A program made the translations under genes and the position numbers. A stretch of 64,000 bases of DNA, from assembly GCF_003261175.1 (NCBI RefSeq), contig NZ_QLNP01000078.1, positions 1 through 64,000 of the forward strand, given 5' to 3'. The notes under the pieces were generated by a model. It had not been told where the DNA came from and did no database searches. It saw only the letters and a program-made list of their open reading frames with translations. Source of the stretch: Arthrobacter globiformis. GTDB lineage: Bacteria; Actinomycetota; Actinomycetes; Actinomycetales; Micrococcaceae. This document shows, one piece after another, positions 3,815 to 16,968 of the stretch (the first letter of the stretch is position 1; each line of letters starts with the position of its first letter).

Positions 3815-6211
<2,397 letters not shown>

Positions 6212-9277: not shown

Positions 9278-9494
9278 GGATGTCCTTTGGCATTTGAAAA
9301 ATTACTGGGCTGCTCAGAGTTTTGGGCCGCGAGCGAATCGGCGGCAAGGAGCGCTCCGGAATCGCTGCGTACGCAGCGTCCAATCGGACGACGCCTGCAT
9401 GGGCGGCCTGTAGGCCGCTGGTGCACCGCCCCCACGGGCTCTGATGGAAGCCTCTCCACGCGCATGGTCTCGCGTGCATCATGTTCGGTGCTCT
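9278..9494 (-). other. Long hairpin-rich 5' leader of the 68-aa gene
   Basis: Roughly 217 nt separate the inferred transcription start from the ATG at 9277. On the transcript, hairpin or palindrome units are: GCGGCCT-AC-AGGCCGC (9403-9418 in + coordinates), CGCTGCGTACGCAGCG (9363-9378, 16-bp perfect palindrome) and GGAGCGCTCC (9348-9357). No open frame explains these. It could be a structured regulatory leader or a set of protein-binding sites. It does not match any riboswitch class I can recognise. Confidence 0.45.
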
Positions 9495-9500
9495 GCGAAA

Positions 9501-9529
9501 ATTAGACCTTGAGGTCAAATCTCTGTCAA
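9501..9529 (-). promoter_or_regulatory. Promoter with palindrome in its spacer and -10 edge
   Basis: Read on the minus strand: TTGACA (9529-9524), a 17-bp spacer, then TCTAAT (9506-9501), a near-consensus housekeeping promoter. The inverted repeat GACCT-CA-AGGTC (9505-9516) covers the spacer and the edge of the -10 box, a position suited to a repressor or MerR-like regulator. It points to the 68-aa gene; the IclR-like gene stop lies just upstream. Confidence 0.6.
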
Positions 9530-9539
9530 GCCTCGGAAC

Positions 9540-10193
9540 CTAGCCCCCTTCCCGCACTGCCTCTGCAATCCTCCGTGCTGCCTGCACAACGACGGCGCCG
9601 TGGTCCTGGCCTGGCGAGCCGGTGACCCGGGCCAGGGGCATGGCGAGGCAGACCGCAGCGATGATTCCTTCCTCTGTCTGCACGGGTGCGCTGATGGACC
9701 CGAGGCCGGGCGTGCGGGAGCCGACCGATTCGATCCAGCCCGCCGAAGCCAGCTCCGCCAGCACTTCGTCATCGGCGGCGAGGAGCCGGCCGCTGGAGCC
9801 AGCGGGCAGGGGGAGCCGCGAACCCGGCGGCAGGGTGGCGCGCAGTTCGTGCCGGCTGTCCGCGCTGAGGAGGCAGACCCTTTCGTCACCCCGCCGGACC
9901 CAGAGTTGTGCACTTTCGCCGGTGGTGTCACGGAGTTCGTGGAGTACGGGCAGGGCGGCGTTCTCCAGGGCCGAGCGGACGAACCGCTGCCCCAGGCGGA
10001 AGGTGCCGCTCTCAGTCCTGCGGAGGAAGCCGTAATCTACCATCTGCAGGGCCAGCCGGTGTGCGGTGGACAGGGACAGGCCGGTCCGCCGGGACAGCTC
10101 ACTGGCTGATACAGCGGACCGGCCCACCGCGTCTAGGATCGCGGCGGCACGCTCCAGCGTGCGGTTGTTTCCGTTCTGTTCAGTAGGCGGCAT
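9540..10193 (-). CDS. IclR-family transcriptional regulator
   Basis: 217 aa. Residues about 10-75 are the IclR winged helix (RTLERAAAILDAVG, SASELSRRTGLSLSTAHRLALQM, GFLRRTESGTFRLG). Residues about 75-215 are the effector domain with ALPVLHELRDTTGESAQLWV and SAPVQTEEGIIAAVCLAMP. It is slightly shorter than typical (about 250 aa). It is the last gene of the six-gene minus-strand operon (22 bp after the TPP enzyme) and probably controls it, perhaps through the inverted repeat at 16076-16092. The effector is presumably the operon's hydroxy-acid substrate or an intermediate. Confidence 0.9.
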   Translation of the reverse strand: MPPTEQNGNNRTLERAAAILDAVGRSAVSASELSRRTGLSLSTAHRLALQMVDYGFLRRTESGTFRLGQRFVRSALENAALPVLHELRDTTGESAQLWVRRGDERVCLLSADSRHELRATLPPGSRLPLPAGSSGRLLAADDEVLAELASAGWIESVGSRTPGLGSISAPVQTEEGIIAAVCLAMPLARVTGSPGQDHGAVVVQAARRIAEAVREGG

Positions 10194-10215
10194 GTGGCCA
10201 GCTTATGACGCGGGC

Positions 10216-11910
10216 TCAGCCCTTGGCGGCCAGCGACTCCGTCATGAACTCGGCAATCACCTTCTGCGATATCGCCACGTCCAGAACGAACACGCCGTCG
10301 TCGTGCGTGGCCAGCCAGCTCTCAAGCTGCCCCAGGTCGGCAAGGGTGTGGGCCTTGATACCGTCGGCACCCAGTGCACGTCCGACGGCGGCAAAGTCCA
10401 CTTCGTCGATCAGCATCGCCTGGCTGTGCAGCCCCTTTGCGGCGTACTGATGCAGTTCGGCCCCGTACGCCGAGTCATTGAGCACGACGACGACACCCCT
10501 GCGGGTGGCCCGGAGGAACGTCTCGAAGTCGGACAGCCCCATCAGGCCGCCGCCGTCACCGCTGACCAGGACCGTGGTGCGTTCGGGGCGGGCAACGGAG
10601 ACGCCCGCGGCAGAGCCGAAGCCGAGCCCGATGGACTGGAAGGCGGTCCCCACCAGTACCATGGCGTGCGGGTCCGGGACGGAGAGGTACATCGGCGCCC
10701 AGCCGATGAAGTGCCCGCCGTCCATGACCACGGATCGTTCGGCCGGCAGGATCCGGTCCAGGGCAGCGACGACGGCGCGCGGGTTAAGCCGACCGTCCGC
10801 CCCGAACTCGACAGGGTCCTCCACCGGGCTGGACGAACGGAAATCCGGTCCCGACACTTCGGGGACAGCATCCCGCCAGGTCCGCGATGCGGCGGCCGGC
10901 ACCCTTTCCAGCAGTCCCTCAGCGAACGGCAGGATGTCCGCCCGGATGTATTCGGCGCCGGCGTTCTGCCCGGCGTCGGGTCCGTTGTCGAGGCGGATGA
11001 TCCTGGCGTCTGCCGGGAACAGTGTTCCGTAACGGGTCTGGAAAGTGTTGAGGCTTGCCCCGACCACCAGGATGAGGTCCGCCTGGCGGGCGACGTCGAG
11101 GCGGTGGCTGCGGGTGAAGCCGCCGGCGATGCCGAGGTCCCACTCACTGCGGAACGCGTTGGCGGCCATCACGGAGGTCATGAAGAGGGCGCCGAGCCGG
11201 TCGCCCACTTCCCGCAGCAGGGCTGTTGCACCGGCCAGAAGCACGCCACGCCCGGCCAGGATGAGCGGCCGCTGGGCCGAGGCGAGCTGTTCCGCCACCC
11301 GGTCCAGATCGCCGGCTGCCGCCGGCCACGCGGGTTTGGCCGGAAGGGGTTCAAGCGGCACCGGGGCCTGCAGGGGAGCGGTGGCGAGGTCGTAGGGAAT
11401 GGCGAGGACTACCGGCTGGACGGTCTGCAAAGCGAGGTCGAAGGCTCGGTGGGTTATTGCGGCGGCGTTGTCCGGATGCGCCACCAGCGTGGTGACGCCG
11501 GCGGCTTCGGCCGCCTTGGCCTGGTCGATGTCGAACGGCCGGCGGCCCCTGGCCGGGGCATCTCCGACGACGAACACCAGCGGAATGCGGGCCAGCCGGG
11601 CTTCGGCGAGCGTTGTGTAGGCATTGGTGAAGCCGGCGCCGTAGGTGGTGGTGGCCGCCGCCACGCCTCCGGTGGCGCGATGGTAGGCATCGGCCATGGC
11701 AACGGTGGCGGCCTCGTGGCGCGCCGACGTGAAGGGGAAGCCGCGGCGTGTGAGCCGGCTGATGAGGTGGGCGTTGCCGTTGCCCATCAGCCCGAACAGG
11801 TGTCCCGCGCGTTCCGCCAGGACATCGGCGACGGCCGCCGAGACGTGACCCTCATCAGGAAGTGTGGGCGCCGCGGTGCTTTGCCGGGAGGTGGTTGAGG
11901 TGGTGGTCAT
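10216..11910 (-). CDS. Thiamine-pyrophosphate-dependent enzyme, acetolactate-synthase/2-oxoacid-decarboxylase-like
   Basis: 564 aa with the three-domain plan of the acetolactate synthase superfamily. The N-terminal PYR domain has the cofactor-activating glutamate Glu66 (SARHEAATVAMADAYHRATG). The central domain spans about residues 200-335. The C-terminal PP domain has the Mg-TPP motif GDG (451-453) with Asn478 (VVLNDSAYG), the usual 25-residue spacing. The reaction is a 2-oxo acid decarboxylation or carboligation in the cytoplasm; the substrate cannot be told. It is not in an ilv context (no ilvN/ilvC nearby), so branched-chain amino-acid synthesis is unlikely. It lies between gamma-CA-like and IclR genes, fifth in the operon. 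Confidence 0.87.
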   Translation of the reverse strand: MTTTSTTSRQSTAAPTLPDEGHVSAAVADVLAERAGHLFGLMGNGNAHLISRLTRRGFPFTSARHEAATVAMADAYHRATGGVAAATTTYGAGFTNAYTTLAEARLARIPLVFVVGDAPARGRRPFDIDQAKAAEAAGVTTLVAHPDNAAAITHRAFDLALQTVQPVVLAIPYDLATAPLQAPVPLEPLPAKPAWPAAAGDLDRVAEQLASAQRPLILAGRGVLLAGATALLREVGDRLGALFMTSVMAANAFRSEWDLGIAGGFTRSHRLDVARQADLILVVGASLNTFQTRYGTLFPADARIIRLDNGPDAGQNAGAEYIRADILPFAEGLLERVPAAASRTWRDAVPEVSGPDFRSSSPVEDPVEFGADGRLNPRAVVAALDRILPAERSVVMDGGHFIGWAPMYLSVPDPHAMVLVGTAFQSIGLGFGSAAGVSVARPERTTVLVSGDGGGLMGLSDFETFLRATRRGVVVVLNDSAYGAELHQYAAKGLHSQAMLIDEVDFAAVGRALGADGIKAHTLADLGQLESWLATHDDGVFVLDVAISQKVIAEFMTESLAAKG

Positions 11911-11943
11911 TGGCAGTCCTTGCGCTCGTGGGGTGGGAACTGG

Positions 11944-12480
11944 TCAGGCCGGATGCGCCACGGTGGTGGCGTCCCGGTGCCTCAGCGTAAGTGCGGCGTA
12001 CGTTGCGGCGTTCTGCCGGCAATGCTCGATCTCCTCCGGGGTGAGGGCCCGGCGCACCTTGGCCGGCACGCCCGCCACGAGCGAGCCCGGCGGCACCTCG
12101 GTGCCCTCGAGGACCAGCGCGTTGGCCGCCACCAGGGCGCCGGCGCCGATGATGGCGCCGTTCAGGACCGTGGCATTCATGCCGACGAGTGCCCCGTCGC
12201 CCACCGTGCAGCCGTGCAGCACCGCGCCGTGCCCCACGCTGACGTGGCTGCCCACGCGTGCAGGGTAGCCGGGGTCCGCGTGCACGACGGCGGTGTCCTG
12301 GACGTTGCTGCCCTCGCCAAGGCTGATGTCCTCCATGTCCGCCCGGATGACGGCGCCGTAAAAGATACCCGTTTCGGCGCCGATGCTGGCGGATCCGACG
12401 ACCGTGGCGGTGGGCGCCACCCACGCGTCGCCAGAGATCTGCGGGGAGCGGCCGCCGACGGCCAGGATGTTGTCTGTCAC
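11944..12480 (-). CDS. Gamma-carbonic-anhydrase-like hexapeptide-repeat protein (CaiE/PaaY type)
   Basis: 178 aa made of left-handed beta-helix hexapeptide repeats (about residues 15-135, e.g. VVGSASIGAETG, GAVLHGCTVGDGALVGMNAT) followed by a C-terminal helix (LTPEEIEHCRQNAATYAAL). The histidines of the metal site are visible in AVVHADPG and HVSVGHGAVLHGC. Members include true gamma-carbonic anhydrases and the CaiE/PaaY subgroup. CaiE sits with the CoA-transferase CaiB in carnitine operons, so the pairing here with a CaiB/BaiF enzyme fits that subgroup. Fourth gene of the operon, 12 bp after the transporter gene. Confidence 0.88.
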   Translation of the reverse strand: MTDNILAVGGRSPQISGDAWVAPTATVVGSASIGAETGIFYGAVIRADMEDISLGEGSNVQDTAVVHADPGYPARVGSHVSVGHGAVLHGCTVGDGALVGMNATVLNGAIIGAGALVAANALVLEGTEVPPGSLVAGVPAKVRRALTPEEIEHCRQNAATYAALTLRHRDATTVAHPA

Positions 12481-12492
12481 GATGGACCTTTC

Positions 12493-13857
12493 TTAGGTGA
12501 GGAAGGGAACGATCAGCGACGTCACGAAGAGCACCAGCGCCCCGCCGAGGCGGTTGGTGAGCGCCGCAAACGGCATCAGGTGCATGCGGTTCGCCGCGCT
12601 CAGGACGGAGACGTCGCCGCTGCCCCCGGTGTCCGCCATGACCAGACCGGGCGTGATGGAGGCTTCGACGAAGTTGAACTTCACGAGCCAGCCGAGAACG
12701 CCGGAGGTCAGGGTCGCGATGACGACGGTGCAGATGGTCAGGAGGATGAACAGGGGGTTGCTCAGCGAGGCGAGGACATCGGTGATGTCGATGTAGGTCA
12801 GGCTGACGCCCACCAGGAGGGCGGGGACCAGCACGGCGCCGATCAGGTCACCCCAGTCCGCCGTGGAGTCCTCCACGTCCTGGGGGAGCAGCCCGAAGAT
12901 CTTGACGGCGGCTGCCGCAATGATGGCCCAGGCGTAGGGGTGCAGGCCGGGGAGGAATGCGGCCATCAGGTTGCCGAAGACGAAGAGGCTGCCGGCGATG
13001 AGAAGGCCCTTGCCGAGGGCGATGAACGAGGAGGCGTCGCGCTTGGGCGGCAGGGTGAGCTTGTCGGAGCGGCCCTTGATCCGCATGAGCTGGCCGTGGC
13101 CGTTGAAGCCGACGAAGAGCTGCTTCTTGCGCTTGCCCAGGCCGTTGTAGATGCCAGCGATGAGGATGCATACAACGTTGGCCATGACGACGGCGGACAT
13201 CAGGTCGCCCATGAAGGTGGCGGAGTCACCGCCAGTGGCCGAGGCGTACATCTCGGACATGGGCAGGGCCCCGACGCCCAGGCCGCCGGCCATGATGGGC
13301 GCGGCGACAAAGAGGATGCCTTCGATAAATCCGAACCCCGTGAGGGCCGCGATGAGCCCGACCAGGACGAAGGTGGCGATCAGGCAGCCCACGACGGGGA
13401 CCGCGAAGCGCGGGCCGGCCTTCAGCAGGAGGGCGCGGGGCATGCCGAGGATGGAGCCTGCGATGATGCCGACGACGAAGAAGTCCAGGAATCCGTGTCC
13501 GTCGATGAAGTTCTGCACCACGGTGACGAGGTTCCCGGGCATCAGTCCGAGGAAAGCCAGCGTGGCCGGAGCGAACGTGCACAGGATTGTGGGCAGCCCG
13601 AAGTCGCGGACCACCGGGAACAGGTTGCCGATCCAGATGAAGAGCCCGCCGAGCAGGATGGTGGTGGCGAAGCCAACCACCATGGTGTCCGGAAGGTTGC
13701 CCGTGATTGCCGCTGTCAGGACCAGCCCGGCGAGGACGAGGTAGAGCGGGGCCGGAATGCTGGCGATCCTGAGCCGCACACGATCGTGGCTCTTCTCGCG
13801 CATTGGCCGGTCCGTAGGTTCGATGGTGAGGTCGGTGGTACGTGAATTTGTAGACAT
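12493..13857 (-). CDS. 2-hydroxycarboxylate transporter (2-HCT/CitS family)
   Basis: 454 aa from the second of two adjacent ATGs, best placed after GGGGAC. About 11-12 hydrophobic segments start near residue 35. The two 2-HCT signature loops are present: SATGGDSATFMGD in the N-terminal half and MADTGGSGDVSVLSAANRM in the C-terminal half (GGxG re-entrant motif with the substrate-binding region). The family moves citrate, malate, citramalate or lactate with Na+ or H+ or by exchange. Its place beside CoA-transferase and lyase genes points to import of the operon's substrate. The upstream frame to 14133 overlaps the lyase gene and was not used. Confidence 0.9.
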   Translation of the reverse strand: MSTNSRTTDLTIEPTDRPMREKSHDRVRLRIASIPAPLYLVLAGLVLTAAITGNLPDTMVVGFATTILLGGLFIWIGNLFPVVRDFGLPTILCTFAPATLAFLGLMPGNLVTVVQNFIDGHGFLDFFVVGIIAGSILGMPRALLLKAGPRFAVPVVGCLIATFVLVGLIAALTGFGFIEGILFVAAPIMAGGLGVGALPMSEMYASATGGDSATFMGDLMSAVVMANVVCILIAGIYNGLGKRKKQLFVGFNGHGQLMRIKGRSDKLTLPPKRDASSFIALGKGLLIAGSLFVFGNLMAAFLPGLHPYAWAIIAAAAVKIFGLLPQDVEDSTADWGDLIGAVLVPALLVGVSLTYIDITDVLASLSNPLFILLTICTVVIATLTSGVLGWLVKFNFVEASITPGLVMADTGGSGDVSVLSAANRMHLMPFAALTNRLGGALVLFVTSLIVPFLT

Positions 13858-13930
13858 CATTGTCCCCAAAACGTTTGGTGGGAAGACCGCCGCGGCGGCC
13901 TCTGGACGGGAGTTGAAGCAGGAAAAGGGT

Positions 13931-14806
13931 TTAGCGGGCGGGATCGAGAACGCCGGCCGCCGGGGAATGGGCGACGACGTCGCGGGCGAGCCGTACAGCC
14001 TCGGCGAGTCGGTCCTCGTCGATGCCGGTCTGGTGTCCGGCGTCGTGGAGGTGCCGGACAAGCTCCTCCGTGGCGATGTTGCCGTGTGCCCCGGGGGCGA
14101 ACGGGCAACCGCCGTAGCCGCCGAGGGCGGCATCGAAACGCACGACGCCGGTCTCCACTGCGGCGCTCGCGGTGGCCAGCGCCTGGCTGTGAGCGTTATG
14201 CAGGTGCAGGTAGTACGTGAGGTCCGGTTCGGCGTCGCTGACGTGGTGCAGGCTGGCCATCACCTGTTCGGTGGGCGTGGTGCCCAGCGTGTCGGCCAGC
14301 CCGACGTCGGTGATGCCCATGCCCATGAACGCACGCACCACGCGCAGCAGGTAGGCCGGGTCGATTGCGCCCTCGAACGGGCACGTGAAGGCGGTGGAGA
14401 TGCCGGCGAAGAACCGGATTTCCGGGAACCCGGCCACGGCCGCGCCGAGGCTGGCCAGCGCGTCCTCGATGGCCTGGCCGGCGTTGGCGTTGCTGTGCGC
14501 CTGACTTGCGGAGGTAACCACCTGAATGTCGGTGGCTCCCGCCTCGACAGCCCGCTGAATGCCGCGGCCGTTGAGCGCCAGGCTGGTGTACGTGACACCC
14601 GGAACTGCCGGCAGCGACGCGACTACCTCGGCGGCGTCGGCCATCTGCGGAACCCGCTTGGGGTTCACGAAGGAGGCGACCTCGATGCGCTTCAGGCCGG
14701 CGTCGACGAGCGCCTCGGCGATCTCGAGTTTGTGCGCCGTCGAAACGATGACAGGCTCGTCCTGGAGTCCGTCCCGCAGAAACACGTCAGTGATTTCGAC
14801 CTTCAT
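13931..14806 (-). CDS. Hydroxymethylglutaryl-CoA-lyase-like enzyme
   Basis: 291 aa from an ATG with AGGAGG inside the end of the preceding gene (2-bp gap). DRE-TIM/HMGL family: catalytic loop RDGLQ (residues 11-15), ASFVNPKRVPQMAD, metal ligands HLH (201-203) and the lid cysteine Cys234 in GGYGGCPFAPGA, all diagnostic of HMG-CoA lyases. It would cleave a 3-hydroxy-3-methyl-type acyl-CoA, classically HMG-CoA to acetyl-CoA plus acetoacetate; citramalyl-CoA-like substrates are also possible. The adjacent CoA-transferase would supply the thioester. Confidence 0.92.
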   Translation of the reverse strand: MKVEITDVFLRDGLQDEPVIVSTAHKLEIAEALVDAGLKRIEVASFVNPKRVPQMADAAEVVASLPAVPGVTYTSLALNGRGIQRAVEAGATDIQVVTSASQAHSNANAGQAIEDALASLGAAVAGFPEIRFFAGISTAFTCPFEGAIDPAYLLRVVRAFMGMGITDVGLADTLGTTPTEQVMASLHHVSDAEPDLTYYLHLHNAHSQALATASAAVETGVVRFDAALGGYGGCPFAPGAHGNIATEELVRHLHDAGHQTGIDEDRLAEAVRLARDVVAHSPAAGVLDPAR

Positions 14807-14808
14807 GT

Positions 14809-16044
14809 TCAGCGTGCCTCCTGCAGTCCGAGGCCGGCGATCTCGTCTGCATTCATGCCGGCGAGCTCCTGCAGGACCTCGGCGGTGTGCTGGCCGAGTT
14901 CGGGGCCGACCCATTTGACGCGGCCCTCGTGACCCGGGATCTTCGGCACGACGCCGGGGAACCGGATCAGTTCGGGCTCGTCCTCGATGACCACCTCGTG
15001 GGTCTGGATCATGTCGCGGGCCAGGTAGTGGCGGTCGACGGCGATGCTGGGGGCGTCGTAGACGGGACCGGCGGGCACGCCGGCGTCGTCCAGCTTGTCG
15101 AGGACCTCGGTGAGGGGCATGCTGCCGGTCCAGGCGGAGATGGCTCCGTTGAGCTCTTCCTCCCGGGCGCCGCGCGCCTGTGTGGCGAGCAGGGTGGCGT
15201 CCTCGGCGAGGTCGTCGCGGCCGATGGCCCGCATGAGCCGGACGAAGACGGAATTGGAGTTGCCGCCGATGACCACCTCGAGTTCGTCCTGGCAGAGGTA
15301 GGAGCCGGTAGGTACGACGCCGGGCAGCGCGCCGCCGGTGCGCTGCCGGATCATGCCGTAAGCGTCATAGTCCGGGACCAGCGATTCGAGCAGGCTGAAG
15401 ACCCCTTCATAGAGGGCGACGTCGACCACCTGGGAAGTTCCGGCCTCCAGTCCGCGGGCCTTCTGGAGCATGAGCATGAGGGCACCGATGACGCCGTAGA
15501 GCCCGGCGACGGTGTCACCCATGCTGGCCGCCGCACGGCCGGCCGGGCGGTCCGGCTCACCCGTGATGTAGCGCAGGCCGGCAAACGACTCAGCGGAGCT
15601 GCCGAATCCGGCCCGGTTTTTGTATGGTCCGGTCTGGCCGTAGCCGGAGATCCGGACCATGACCACCTCGGGGTTGAGTTCCTGCAGCACATCCGGGCCG
15701 AGGCCCCACTTCTCAAGGGTGCCGGGGCGGAAGTTCTCGATGACCACGTCGCACTGGGCGGCAATCTTCTTGACCGCCTCGCGGCCCGCCTCGGAGCGGA
15801 GGTCCAGGGCCACGGACTTCTTGTTGCGGCCGATGGTGCGGAACAGCATGGAGGTGGTGCCGCGGGTCTTGCGCCAGTCGCGCAGTTCGTCGCCGCCCCG
15901 GGGCTTTTCGATCTTGATGACCTCAGCACCGAAGTCACCGAAGAGGCGGGCGGCAAACGGGGCGGCGATAAAGCTGCCCAGTTCGAGCACGCGGATGCCG
16001 CGGAGGGGGAGGGCGTTGCCCTCGATGTGTAGTTCGTCAGTCAT
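14809..16044 (-). CDS. CaiB/BaiF family (class III) CoA-transferase
   Basis: 411 aa from ATG with AGGAAG upstream. N-terminal LRGIRVLELGSFIAAPFAAR and FGDFGAEVIKIEKP are the family CoA-binding signatures; the nucleophilic aspartate is Asp177 in AASMGDTVAG. Full length (about 400 aa). It moves CoA, usually from succinyl-CoA, to a carboxylic acid. With the HMG-CoA-lyase-like gene 2 bp downstream, hydroxymethylglutarate or a related hydroxy acid is the likely acceptor (inference). First gene of the operon, behind the promoter at 16115-16143. Confidence 0.93.
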   Translation of the reverse strand: MTDELHIEGNALPLRGIRVLELGSFIAAPFAARLFGDFGAEVIKIEKPRGGDELRDWRKTRGTTSMLFRTIGRNKKSVALDLRSEAGREAVKKIAAQCDVVIENFRPGTLEKWGLGPDVLQELNPEVVMVRISGYGQTGPYKNRAGFGSSAESFAGLRYITGEPDRPAGRAAASMGDTVAGLYGVIGALMLMLQKARGLEAGTSQVVDVALYEGVFSLLESLVPDYDAYGMIRQRTGGALPGVVPTGSYLCQDELEVVIGGNSNSVFVRLMRAIGRDDLAEDATLLATQARGAREEELNGAISAWTGSMPLTEVLDKLDDAGVPAGPVYDAPSIAVDRHYLARDMIQTHEVVIEDEPELIRFPGVVPKIPGHEGRVKWVGPELGQHTAEVLQELAGMNADEIAGLGLQEAR

Positions 16045-16075
16045 GTTCTTCCTGCCTGCGCATCGCGCGCCGATT

Positions 16076-16143
16076 TTCCCATTCCGTGGGAAGTGCTTGC
16101 CATTAGGCGGAGACACGATAGCAGTGCGGTGTGACGTGCGCAA
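16076..16143 (-). promoter_or_regulatory. Promoter and inverted repeat for the hydroxy-acid operon
   Basis: Read on the minus strand, TTGCGC (16143-16138), a 17-bp spacer and TATCGT (16120-16115) form a plausible promoter. Downstream of the likely start, TTCCCA-TTCCG-TGGGAA (16076-16092) is a 17-bp interrupted palindrome located between promoter and the ATG at 16044. This suits repression by the operon's own IclR protein. Site assignment is inference. Confidence 0.55.
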
Positions 16144-16209
16144 CAGGGCCGTGGTCCCTCTTTGTCGCGGGTGTGCAAATCGCGGGCCGCCGACGGGTTA
16201 GGCTGTTGC

Positions 16210-16968
16210 GTGCTTCGTCTGAAACGCCTCGCGGTTCTCAGCCTTTTCGCGTTCTGCGCCATCACCGCGGGCGCGTTCTGGCTCCTGGGCGCGACCAATG
16301 CAGGCGCGCCCGGCGCAGGAGTGCGCGCGGCCCTACCGGCTCCGCCGCAGGCGGCGGGGAAGTTCGTGCCGCTGGCAGGGGGCAGTACGCATGCCGTGAA
16401 CATCACCAGGACCGTTGAGCCGGGCTGGCTGGCCCGGGCCGCTGCGCAGGCCGGGATTCCTGCACGAGCCCTTCGGGCGTACGTGGCCGCAGTCAGCATG
16501 GCGAATGCCGATGCGCCGGCGTGCGGGATCGGCTGGAACACGGTAGCCGCCGTCGGGTTTGTCGAATCCGCGCACGGCGCCCTCGGCGGGGGCCATCTCA
16601 CGGCTTCGGGAGACGTGAGCCGTCCGATCGTCGGCCCCGGCCTCAACGGCGACGGCTTCGCCGCCATCGCCGATACCGACGACGGTGCTCTCGACGGCGA
16701 CGCCCTTTGGGACCGCGCCGTGGGGCCCATGCAGTTCATTCCCTCTACGTGGAAGCTGGCAGGGCGGGACGCCAACGGTGACGGGGTGGCCGATCCGCAC
16801 AATATCGACGACGCGGCCCTCAGCGCTGCGGGCTACCTGTGTGCCGGCGGCCGGGACCTCACCTCGAACCAGGGCTGGGCCGATGCTATCTGGTCCTACA
16901 ACCAGTCCGAGGCCTACCTGGCGCAAGTCGGCGAGAAGGCCGTTGAGTATGCGGACCAGGCGGGGTAA
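16210..16968 (+). CDS. Secreted lytic murein transglycosylase (MltB/SLT_2 type)
   Basis: 252 aa from a GTG (VLRLKRLAVLSL...); the frame is open upstream to 16162. Residues about 3-28 are a signal peptide or anchor (LAVLSLFAFCAITAGAFWLL). After a Pro/Ala linker the transglycosylase domain (about residues 75-250) shows VGFVESAHG with the catalytic glutamate, VGPMQFIPSTWKL, DGDGVADPHNIDDAALSAAGYLC-like elements and IWSYNQSEAYL. These are MltB-type motifs. It would cleave glycan strands of peptidoglycan outside the membrane. It is divergent from the CoA-transferase operon. Confidence 0.88.
   Translation: MLRLKRLAVLSLFAFCAITAGAFWLLGATNAGAPGAGVRAALPAPPQAAGKFVPLAGGSTHAVNITRTVEPGWLARAAAQAGIPARALRAYVAAVSMANADAPACGIGWNTVAAVGFVESAHGALGGGHLTASGDVSRPIVGPGLNGDGFAAIADTDDGALDGDALWDRAVGPMQFIPSTWKLAGRDANGDGVADPHNIDDAALSAAGYLCAGGRDLTSNQGWADAIWSYNQSEAYLAQVGEKAVEYADQAG

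Follow-up and report, generated by a model that had tools for sequence, protein, structure and literature searches.

What might an operon serve for that combines a class III coenzyme A (CoA) transferase, a lyase resembling hydroxymethylglutaryl-CoA (HMG-CoA) lyase, a 2-hydroxycarboxylate transporter (2-HCT, 2HCT family) and a thiamine diphosphate (ThDP or TPP) enzyme? The question is raised by a six-gene set at positions 9540-16143 of the window, a 64,000-nucleotide stretch of Arthrobacter globiformis DNA (contig NZ_QLNP01000078.1). With a probability of roughly one half, we read this operon as catabolic for plant acids of the 2-benzylmalate or 2-benzyltartrate type. The reading draws on the gene set and its conservation, on the links of its enzyme families, on adjacency to homoprotocatechuate genes, on the swap of one enzyme module for another and on a palindrome common to both; from these we infer the reactions, the substrate and the pairing of regulator and site.

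All six genes lie on the minus strand at the place where an earlier note on this DNA had seen them, and the coordinates of the open reading frames (ORFs) bear out the reported gaps of 2-73 bp, which successively measure 2, 73, 12, 33 and 22 bp. The family names then given to the six genes also agree with Pfam and NCBIfam profile matches. The first gene (14809-16044) encodes a class III (CaiB/BaiF) CoA-transferase starting with the ATG at 16044, the TTG at 16143 of the ORF list being an extension; CoA_transf_3 (PF02515) spans the full protein (349 bits, profile positions 1-366 of 366). It is followed by the gene of an HMG-CoA-lyase-like (HMGL-like) enzyme, a putative alkylmalyl-CoA lyase (13931-14806), and by that of the 2HCT carrier (12493-13857), matched by PF03390 over its full length (410 bits, 1-414 of 415). 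Next come a gamma-carbonic-anhydrase/PaaY-like hexapeptide protein with a GTG start and Hexapep matches (11944-12480) and the ThDP enzyme with its three TPP domains (10216-11910), a proposed (4-hydroxy)phenylpyruvate decarboxylase on account of its genomic links. The last gene (9540-10193) codes for a short IclR-family regulator of 217 aa, in which HTH_IclR and IclR_C (PF09339, PF01614) both exceed the gathering score, IclR_C as a partial match (8-75 of 174). The single promoter previously claimed for the operon was not recovered, a scan of 9300-16300 having found neither a sigma-70-like site nor a terminator on the minus strand.

Three of the proteins fell short of more specific profiles. The CoA-transferase matched seven NCBIfam models, each below its cut-off, the best being succinate--glutarate CoA-transferase (221 vs 750), and the hexapeptide protein likewise scored below the cut-offs of NF050158 (gamma-carbonic anhydrase, 145 vs 250 bits) and PaaY (138 vs 320 bits). 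The carrier failed the citrate symporter cut-offs (TIGR00783 (ccs), 341 vs 549; CitS, 256 vs 600 bits); by these scores it is a member of its family, citrate specificity not being implied.

Two of the families restrict the choice of substrate. Carriers of the 2-HCT family transport 2-hydroxycarboxylates, and lyases of the HMGL type need a 3-hydroxyacyl-CoA. We favour a 2-(arylmethyl)malate or -tartrate because it would fit both requirements and would leave an arylpyruvate. In the proposed pathway, the carrier would import a 2-benzylmalate- or 2-benzyltartrate-type plant acid (eucomic, piscidic, fukiic), the CoA-transferase would convert it to its CoA thioester, and the HMGL-like enzyme would release, by a retro-Claisen reaction, acetyl-CoA (from eucomate) or glycolyl-CoA (from piscidate or fukiate) together with 4-hydroxy- or 3,4-dihydroxyphenylpyruvate. 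The TPP enzyme would decarboxylate this arylpyruvate to an arylacetaldehyde, whose breakdown would be completed by an aldehyde dehydrogenase together with meta cleavage through homoprotocatechuate, the genes for the latter lying on contig 32 of the same genome. The hexapeptide protein might hydrate CO2 or act on the CoA ester. To judge from the genomic context, an arylpyruvate feeding homoprotocatechuate is the probable product, and the chances that the substrate is of the eucomic, piscidic or fukiic type are about even.

The lyase invites a simpler explanation, namely a true HMG-CoA lyase serving hydroxymethylglutarate use or leucine catabolism. It passes the cut-off of PRK05692, the HMG-CoA lyase subfamily (277 vs 246 bits; PF00682, 147 vs 29), its solved relatives include the HMG-CoA lyases 6nds and 2cw6, and those of the CoA-transferase include succinate--hydroxymethylglutarate CoA-transferase (9br7, E 2.8e-53). 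Seven residues (R11, D12, E42, H201, H203, C234 and N243) are invariant across 36 aligned relatives; we take them to be the catalytic Arg-Asp, the Glu, the metal-binding His-x-His, the loop Cys and the Asn, equivalent to human R41, D42, E72, H233, H235, C266 and N275. From the metal histidines onwards, however, the operon lyase clade reads H-L-H-N-A-(H/N/R) against H-C-H-D-T-Y in 2cw6. Hydroxymethylglutarate, a candidate of the earlier note, loses favour because it is not a 2-hydroxycarboxylate, and it leaves the TPP enzyme, the 2-HCT carrier and the homoprotocatechuate links unexplained. This explanation appears highly improbable, and the HMG/leucine route was rejected as the principal one, having no use for the 2-HCT carrier or the TPP enzyme and facing the changed stretch after the metal histidines.

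HMGL and CaiB-type genes likewise adjoin in other bacteria (e.g. L046, L053, L056), with lyases 37-49% identical to the present one; the operon here differs by the addition of a 2-HCT carrier, a TPP enzyme and an IclR protein. Elsewhere in the window's own genome (locus L116 of G000:C29, 8506-10742), the gene of a 42% identical lyase stands by CaiB-like and IclR-like genes and a transporter-like ORF, these neighbours being named by eye. This set probably handles a different hydroxy acid by a similar, parallel route.

How constant is the gene set among relatives? The CoA-transferase (E <= 1e-150) occurs in 27 of 395 family genomes and in 10 of 32 genera. We compared 30 loci, made up of the window, 26 others from these 27 genomes, and G036, G009 and L037. 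The comparison sustains the grouping noticed earlier: the CoA-transferase gene adjoins the HMGL-like gene in 30/30 loci, a pairing too regular to be due to chance, and mostly in the company of 2HCT and IclR genes. The carrier is found in 26 loci; of the exceptions, L114 carries an MFS transporter gene in this position, L126 breaks off early, L142 has an ORF there that no NCBIfam model names, and the genome of L128 keeps its 2HCT gene elsewhere with another module, described below. The IclR gene is present in 28 loci (as a 46% match in L136), and in the other two, L122 and L143, the contig ends beside the cluster. A TPP gene accompanies 15 of the 30 (in two pieces in L125) and a hexapeptide protein gene six. 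From these counts, CoA-transferase, lyase, carrier and regulator form the core; the TPP enzyme often joins them, and the hexapeptide protein is an accessory. The nearest named clusters are those of Arthrobacter sp. AFG20 and ISL-65, with lyase identities of 96 and 95%. A plasmid search with the 2-HCT protein returned 27 records, all below 60% identity and none of the host group by the first word of the name.

What the TPP enzyme does is best approached through its relatives. Homologues at E <= 1e-90 turned up in 54 of the 297 searched genomes of the order, at 55 places. Leaving aside the window's own place and that of G104 (L155, treated separately), 46 wider-family loci (L156-L201) were drawn from the remaining 53, seven being left out (G527, G473, G647, G506, G689, G096 and G623). 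An FAH-family or HpaD gene (at least 50% identity, same 14-20 kb piece) occurs in 20 of the 46. Five others (L161, L172, L176, L186, L196) have only a phenol-2-monooxygenase-like gene, of the kind that neighbours the homoprotocatechuate cluster, and in another five (L156, the paralogue of the window's own genome, L162, L166, L167 and L183) a HisC-type aminotransferase and an amino-acid permease gene stand beside the TPP gene. A homoprotocatechuate or aminotransferase link is thus present in 30/46 loci. Gene names were given by profile (HpaD, 448 vs 321; HpaE, 669 vs 638; aminotransferase PRK03321, 463 vs 374 bits). In L155, genes for an aldehyde dehydrogenase, an aminotransferase (a coding stretch with a 298-residue match of 49%, beside a run of N) and a 76% identical TPP enzyme follow one another in a row.

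The family therefore carries the genomic link to aromatic amino-acid and homoprotocatechuate genes by which a (4-hydroxy)phenylpyruvate decarboxylase may be recognised. Degradation of tyrosine via 4-hydroxyphenylpyruvate and 4-hydroxyphenylacetate would call for just such a set of genes (aminotransferase, ThDP enzyme, aldehyde dehydrogenase, homoprotocatechuate pathway), and we therefore read the TPP enzyme as a putative arylpyruvate decarboxylase. Its family may supply the 4-hydroxyphenylpyruvate decarboxylase with which Gram-positive bacteria degrade tyrosine. The tree places the TPP proteins of the operon on two or more distinct branches of the family, one of them nested among the others, so that such enzymes have been recruited into the operon repeatedly.

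The structure of the TPP enzyme lends itself to another interpretation, in which the CoA ester formed by the CoA-transferase would be its substrate and it would work as a 2-hydroxyacyl-CoA lyase or carboligase, with formyl-CoA or a C-C coupled compound as the product. The AlphaFold model (pLDDT 79) matches acetohydroxyacid synthase, 2-hydroxyacyl-CoA lyase and benzaldehyde lyase, the latter two being among the nearest solved structures by both Foldseek and phmmer, and the search does not separate decarboxylase from lyase. Yet the Foldseek identities are only 19-25%, the protein scores 142 bits against a cut-off of 600 for the 2-hydroxyacyl-CoA lyase model NF058623, and the relatives adjoin aminotransferase and, once, aldehyde dehydrogenase genes, which makes such an activity very unlikely. 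Glyoxylate carboligase, which presumably does without the catalytic Glu, was also tried and rejected, as the family keeps E66 invariant in 13 aligned rows.

If the operon delivers an arylpyruvate, is it ever found next to the genes that would consume the product? FAH and HpaD lie in the same 16-20 kb piece as the CoA-transferase gene in 4/30 loci, in three arrangements. The operon of L121 lies between the monooxygenase and FAH genes, a pair that in the window's own genome (L146) stand next to each other in divergent orientation; that of L124 is divergent from FAH; and FAH lies downstream of the carrier at 0.4 kb in L140 and 2.1 kb in L139. Of these genes, L130, L131 and L134 have only a 57% monooxygenase nearby. 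By rough arithmetic, less than 1% of loci would be expected so near homoprotocatechuate genes by chance. A control of 67 non-orthologous HMGL loci (L046-L112), loose in that most come from other phyla, contained none with homoprotocatechuate genes at 50% identity or more.

The monooxygenase beside the homoprotocatechuate cluster (L121, 12323-14251; L146, 14266-16149) is a flavin adenine dinucleotide (FAD) enzyme of the PRK08294 type (1075 bits for the L035 copy). In this group it may act as 4-hydroxyphenylacetate 3-hydroxylase.

Nine of the 30 loci also carry an isopropylmalate/tartrate-dehydrogenase-like (IPMDH-like) gene, adjoined in eight by a D-2-hydroxyacid dehydrogenase (D2HDH) gene, the ninth, L122, ending early. 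The best profiles of this module, all under cut-off, are of the IPMDH/tartrate dehydrogenase and glyoxylate/hydroxypyruvate reductase types. The IPMDH-like gene is present in 11 of 295 family genomes, nine of which also have the CoA-transferase. In G364 (L152) and G127 (L154, with a divergent TPP gene), the IPMDH-like/D2HDH pair stands with 2HCT, TPP and IclR genes and without CoA-transferase or lyase. The pair and a 2HCT gene are divergent from HpaE/HpaD in G260 (L150), and the pair lies about 9 kb from HpaD in G209 (L151) and about 14 kb in G172 (L141, L147). Because one pair replaces the other beside the same partners, the CoA-transferase/lyase and IPMDH-like/D2HDH pairs seem to be two optional entries into a single pathway. 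Given a substrate of the tartrate type, the second module could act on the CH(OH) half by oxidation and decarboxylation, after which ThDP cleavage and glyoxylate reduction would, at a guess, lead to the same net products; from piscidate, either module would yield arylacetaldehyde, CO2 and glycolate.

The import of a hydroxy acid, the formation of its CoA ester and its cleavage, as first suggested for this operon, are upheld in form by the gene families. The accompanying suspicion of a further 2-oxo-acid step or a different substrate is favoured by the tie of the TPP family to homoprotocatechuate genes. It is this tie, with the adjacency in four loci and the swap for an IPMDH/tartrate-dehydrogenase-like module, that moves the choice towards benzyl-substituted malates and tartrates.

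Two observations touch the surroundings of the IPMDH-like/D2HDH pair. In L038 (1459-5319), a tartrate dehydrogenase gene (TTC, 515 vs 470 bits) is followed by what appear by eye to be a DctA-like carrier and a glycerate kinase, which suggests tartrate-like chemistry nearby. In L136 (2472-5673), three ORFs resembling, by eye, a tripartite tricarboxylate transporter lie between the pair and the operon.

Are the two modules also under common control? A 17-bp palindrome with perfect 6-bp arms, TTCCCA-CGGAA-TGGGAA, lies at 16076-16092, 32-48 bp ahead of the CoA-transferase start codon. We scanned 260 bp upstream for TTCCCA-N5-TGGGAA, allowing spacers of 4-6 and using shuffled controls. Upstream of the CoA-transferase gene, the best site has at most one mismatch in 24/30 loci and at most two in 29/30 (shuffled means 0.08 and 0.76); upstream of the IPMDH-like gene, the figures are 12/14 and 13/14 (shuffled 0.0 and 0.24). 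These counts are not independent, since loci are related and the divergent pairs of L122, L123 and L144 share one site between both genes. The exact palindrome is rare and present in 12 of 16 genomes searched; the two of G216 are those of the two modules, and the three of G127 are all inside the cluster. Given this recurrence upstream of both modules, we propose the palindrome as a candidate operator at which the IclR protein would repress the operon. In sum, we put forward tentatively, at somewhat less than even odds, a complete and undescribed bacterial benzylmalate/benzyltartrate pathway: either of two entry modules could open it, a single IclR operator would control both, and the ThDP enzyme joining them would be the 4-hydroxyphenylpyruvate decarboxylase that Gram-positive bacteria use in tyrosine catabolism.

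Besides the copy at 16076-16092, the whole genome of the window has one other exact palindrome, at G000:C74:229339-229355. Sites starting TTCCCAAT also occur in G009, G036, G453 and G464, and this type may be a separate conserved element.

Several facts weigh against a benzylmalate/benzyltartrate pathway. No TPP gene is nearby in 15/30 loci, some of them on cut contigs. FAH and HpaD are absent from the fetched piece in 26/30, the window's own operon included, the homoprotocatechuate cluster of that genome lying on a different contig (C32; L146); in 23/30, the window among them, neither FAH/HpaD nor the monooxygenase is seen. Because HpaD occurs in 353/395 family genomes, its co-occurrence with the operon is uninformative and adjacency alone counts. 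In the wider TPP family, 16 of 46 loci lack all of the aromatic neighbours looked for; seven of these do have an aminotransferase match (40-46%) at a greater distance, and L168 has a single GntR match (52%). The aldehyde dehydrogenase of L155 has succinate-semialdehyde dehydrogenase as its best profile (571 vs a cut-off of 646), and by structure the closest matches of the TPP enzyme are acetolactate synthase and 2-hydroxyacyl-CoA lyase. Four of the 16 genomes searched lack the exact palindrome, and in G009, G036, G453 and G464 the sole exact copy is a different site elsewhere. Finally, the chemistry assigned to the IPMDH-like and D2HDH enzymes is a guess.

The loci lacking a TPP gene suit two other accounts. 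Under citramalate or citrate catabolism, the acid would enter through the 2-HCT carrier, and the lyase would split the citramalyl-CoA formed by the CoA-transferase into acetyl-CoA and pyruvate, the TPP enzyme contributing an acetolactate-synthase-like side activity; the nearest models of the carrier are indeed citrate symporters, although under cut-off, and citramalate is described as a root exudate of sugar beet (PMC3176199). We regard this account as unlikely: pyruvate needs no TPP enzyme, so that citramalate, the other candidate of the earlier note, is not favoured, and the repeated recruitment of that enzyme from a homoprotocatechuate-linked family, the adjacency to homoprotocatechuate genes and the IPMDH/D2HDH swap are left unexplained. 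Alternatively, a catabolic island might assemble two unrelated jobs, with CoA-transferase, lyase and carrier acting on an aliphatic hydroxy acid and the TPP enzyme in tyrosine or phenylalanine breakdown, as its occurrence without the operon would allow. This seems quite unlikely, for the TPP gene is co-directional inside the present operon, derives from two or more branches, and keeps its 2HCT and IclR neighbours where CoA-transferase and lyase are replaced (L152; divergent in L154).

Where does the proposed benzylmalate/benzyltartrate pathway stand among known systems? In itaconate and citramalate degradation, CoA activation is followed by cleavage to acetyl-CoA and a 2-oxo acid. Activation and cleavage are common to the operon scheme; to our knowledge, the known citramalyl-CoA lyases are of the CitE type, whereas the operon has an HMGL-type lyase plus a later TPP step. 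The downstream half resembles tyrosine breakdown in Arthrobacter sp. Rue61a, which is reported to grow on tyrosine, 4-hydroxyphenylacetate and homoprotocatechuate, growth on tyrosine being assigned to the latter two and proceeding from 4-hydroxyphenylacetate to homoprotocatechuate meta cleavage (PMC3534580). Tyrosine enters by transamination; in the operon scheme, entry would instead consist in importing a hydroxy acid and passing it through the CoA-transferase and the lyase. The third likeness is to the biosynthesis of fukiic and piscidic acids in plants, where benzyltartrates are proposed to arise from 4-hydroxyphenylpyruvate-derived and acetyl or glycolyl units, the condensation enzyme not being given in the portion available (PMC10978636). 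The building units equal the products of the operon scheme, while the direction is reversed and the organisms differ.

Piscidic acid is described as an exudate of pigeon pea that frees soil phosphate (PMC3176199), and acids of the eucomic, piscidic and fukiic type are named in papers on Opuntia, Vicia and other plants among the matches listed. None of the listed matches in the open-licence literature gave a bacterial pathway for piscidic/eucomic-type acids; nor did that literature yield a match joining benzylmalate with CoA-transferase, one joining hydroxymethylglutaryl-CoA lyase, citramalyl-CoA and CoA transferase, or one combining any three of HMG-CoA lyase, CoA-transferase, 2-hydroxycarboxylate and gene cluster. 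A gut-microbiota study reports piscidic acid as increased, not lost (PMC9653959). The enzymes all belong to known families; it is the gene combination and the two-module design that are absent from the literature matches listed. If the proposal holds, the operon genes would serve as markers for the use of benzylmalate/benzyltartrate plant acids, one group of "HMG-CoA lyase" and CaiB pairs would gain a substrate, and tyrosine breakdown in Arthrobacter-like bacteria would gain a gene candidate for its 4-hydroxyphenylpyruvate decarboxylase step.

Apart from the operon, the window holds a large ORF at 3917-6211 that by eye resembles a catalase-peroxidase (KatG), followed on the opposite strand by TetR-like and MarR-like genes.

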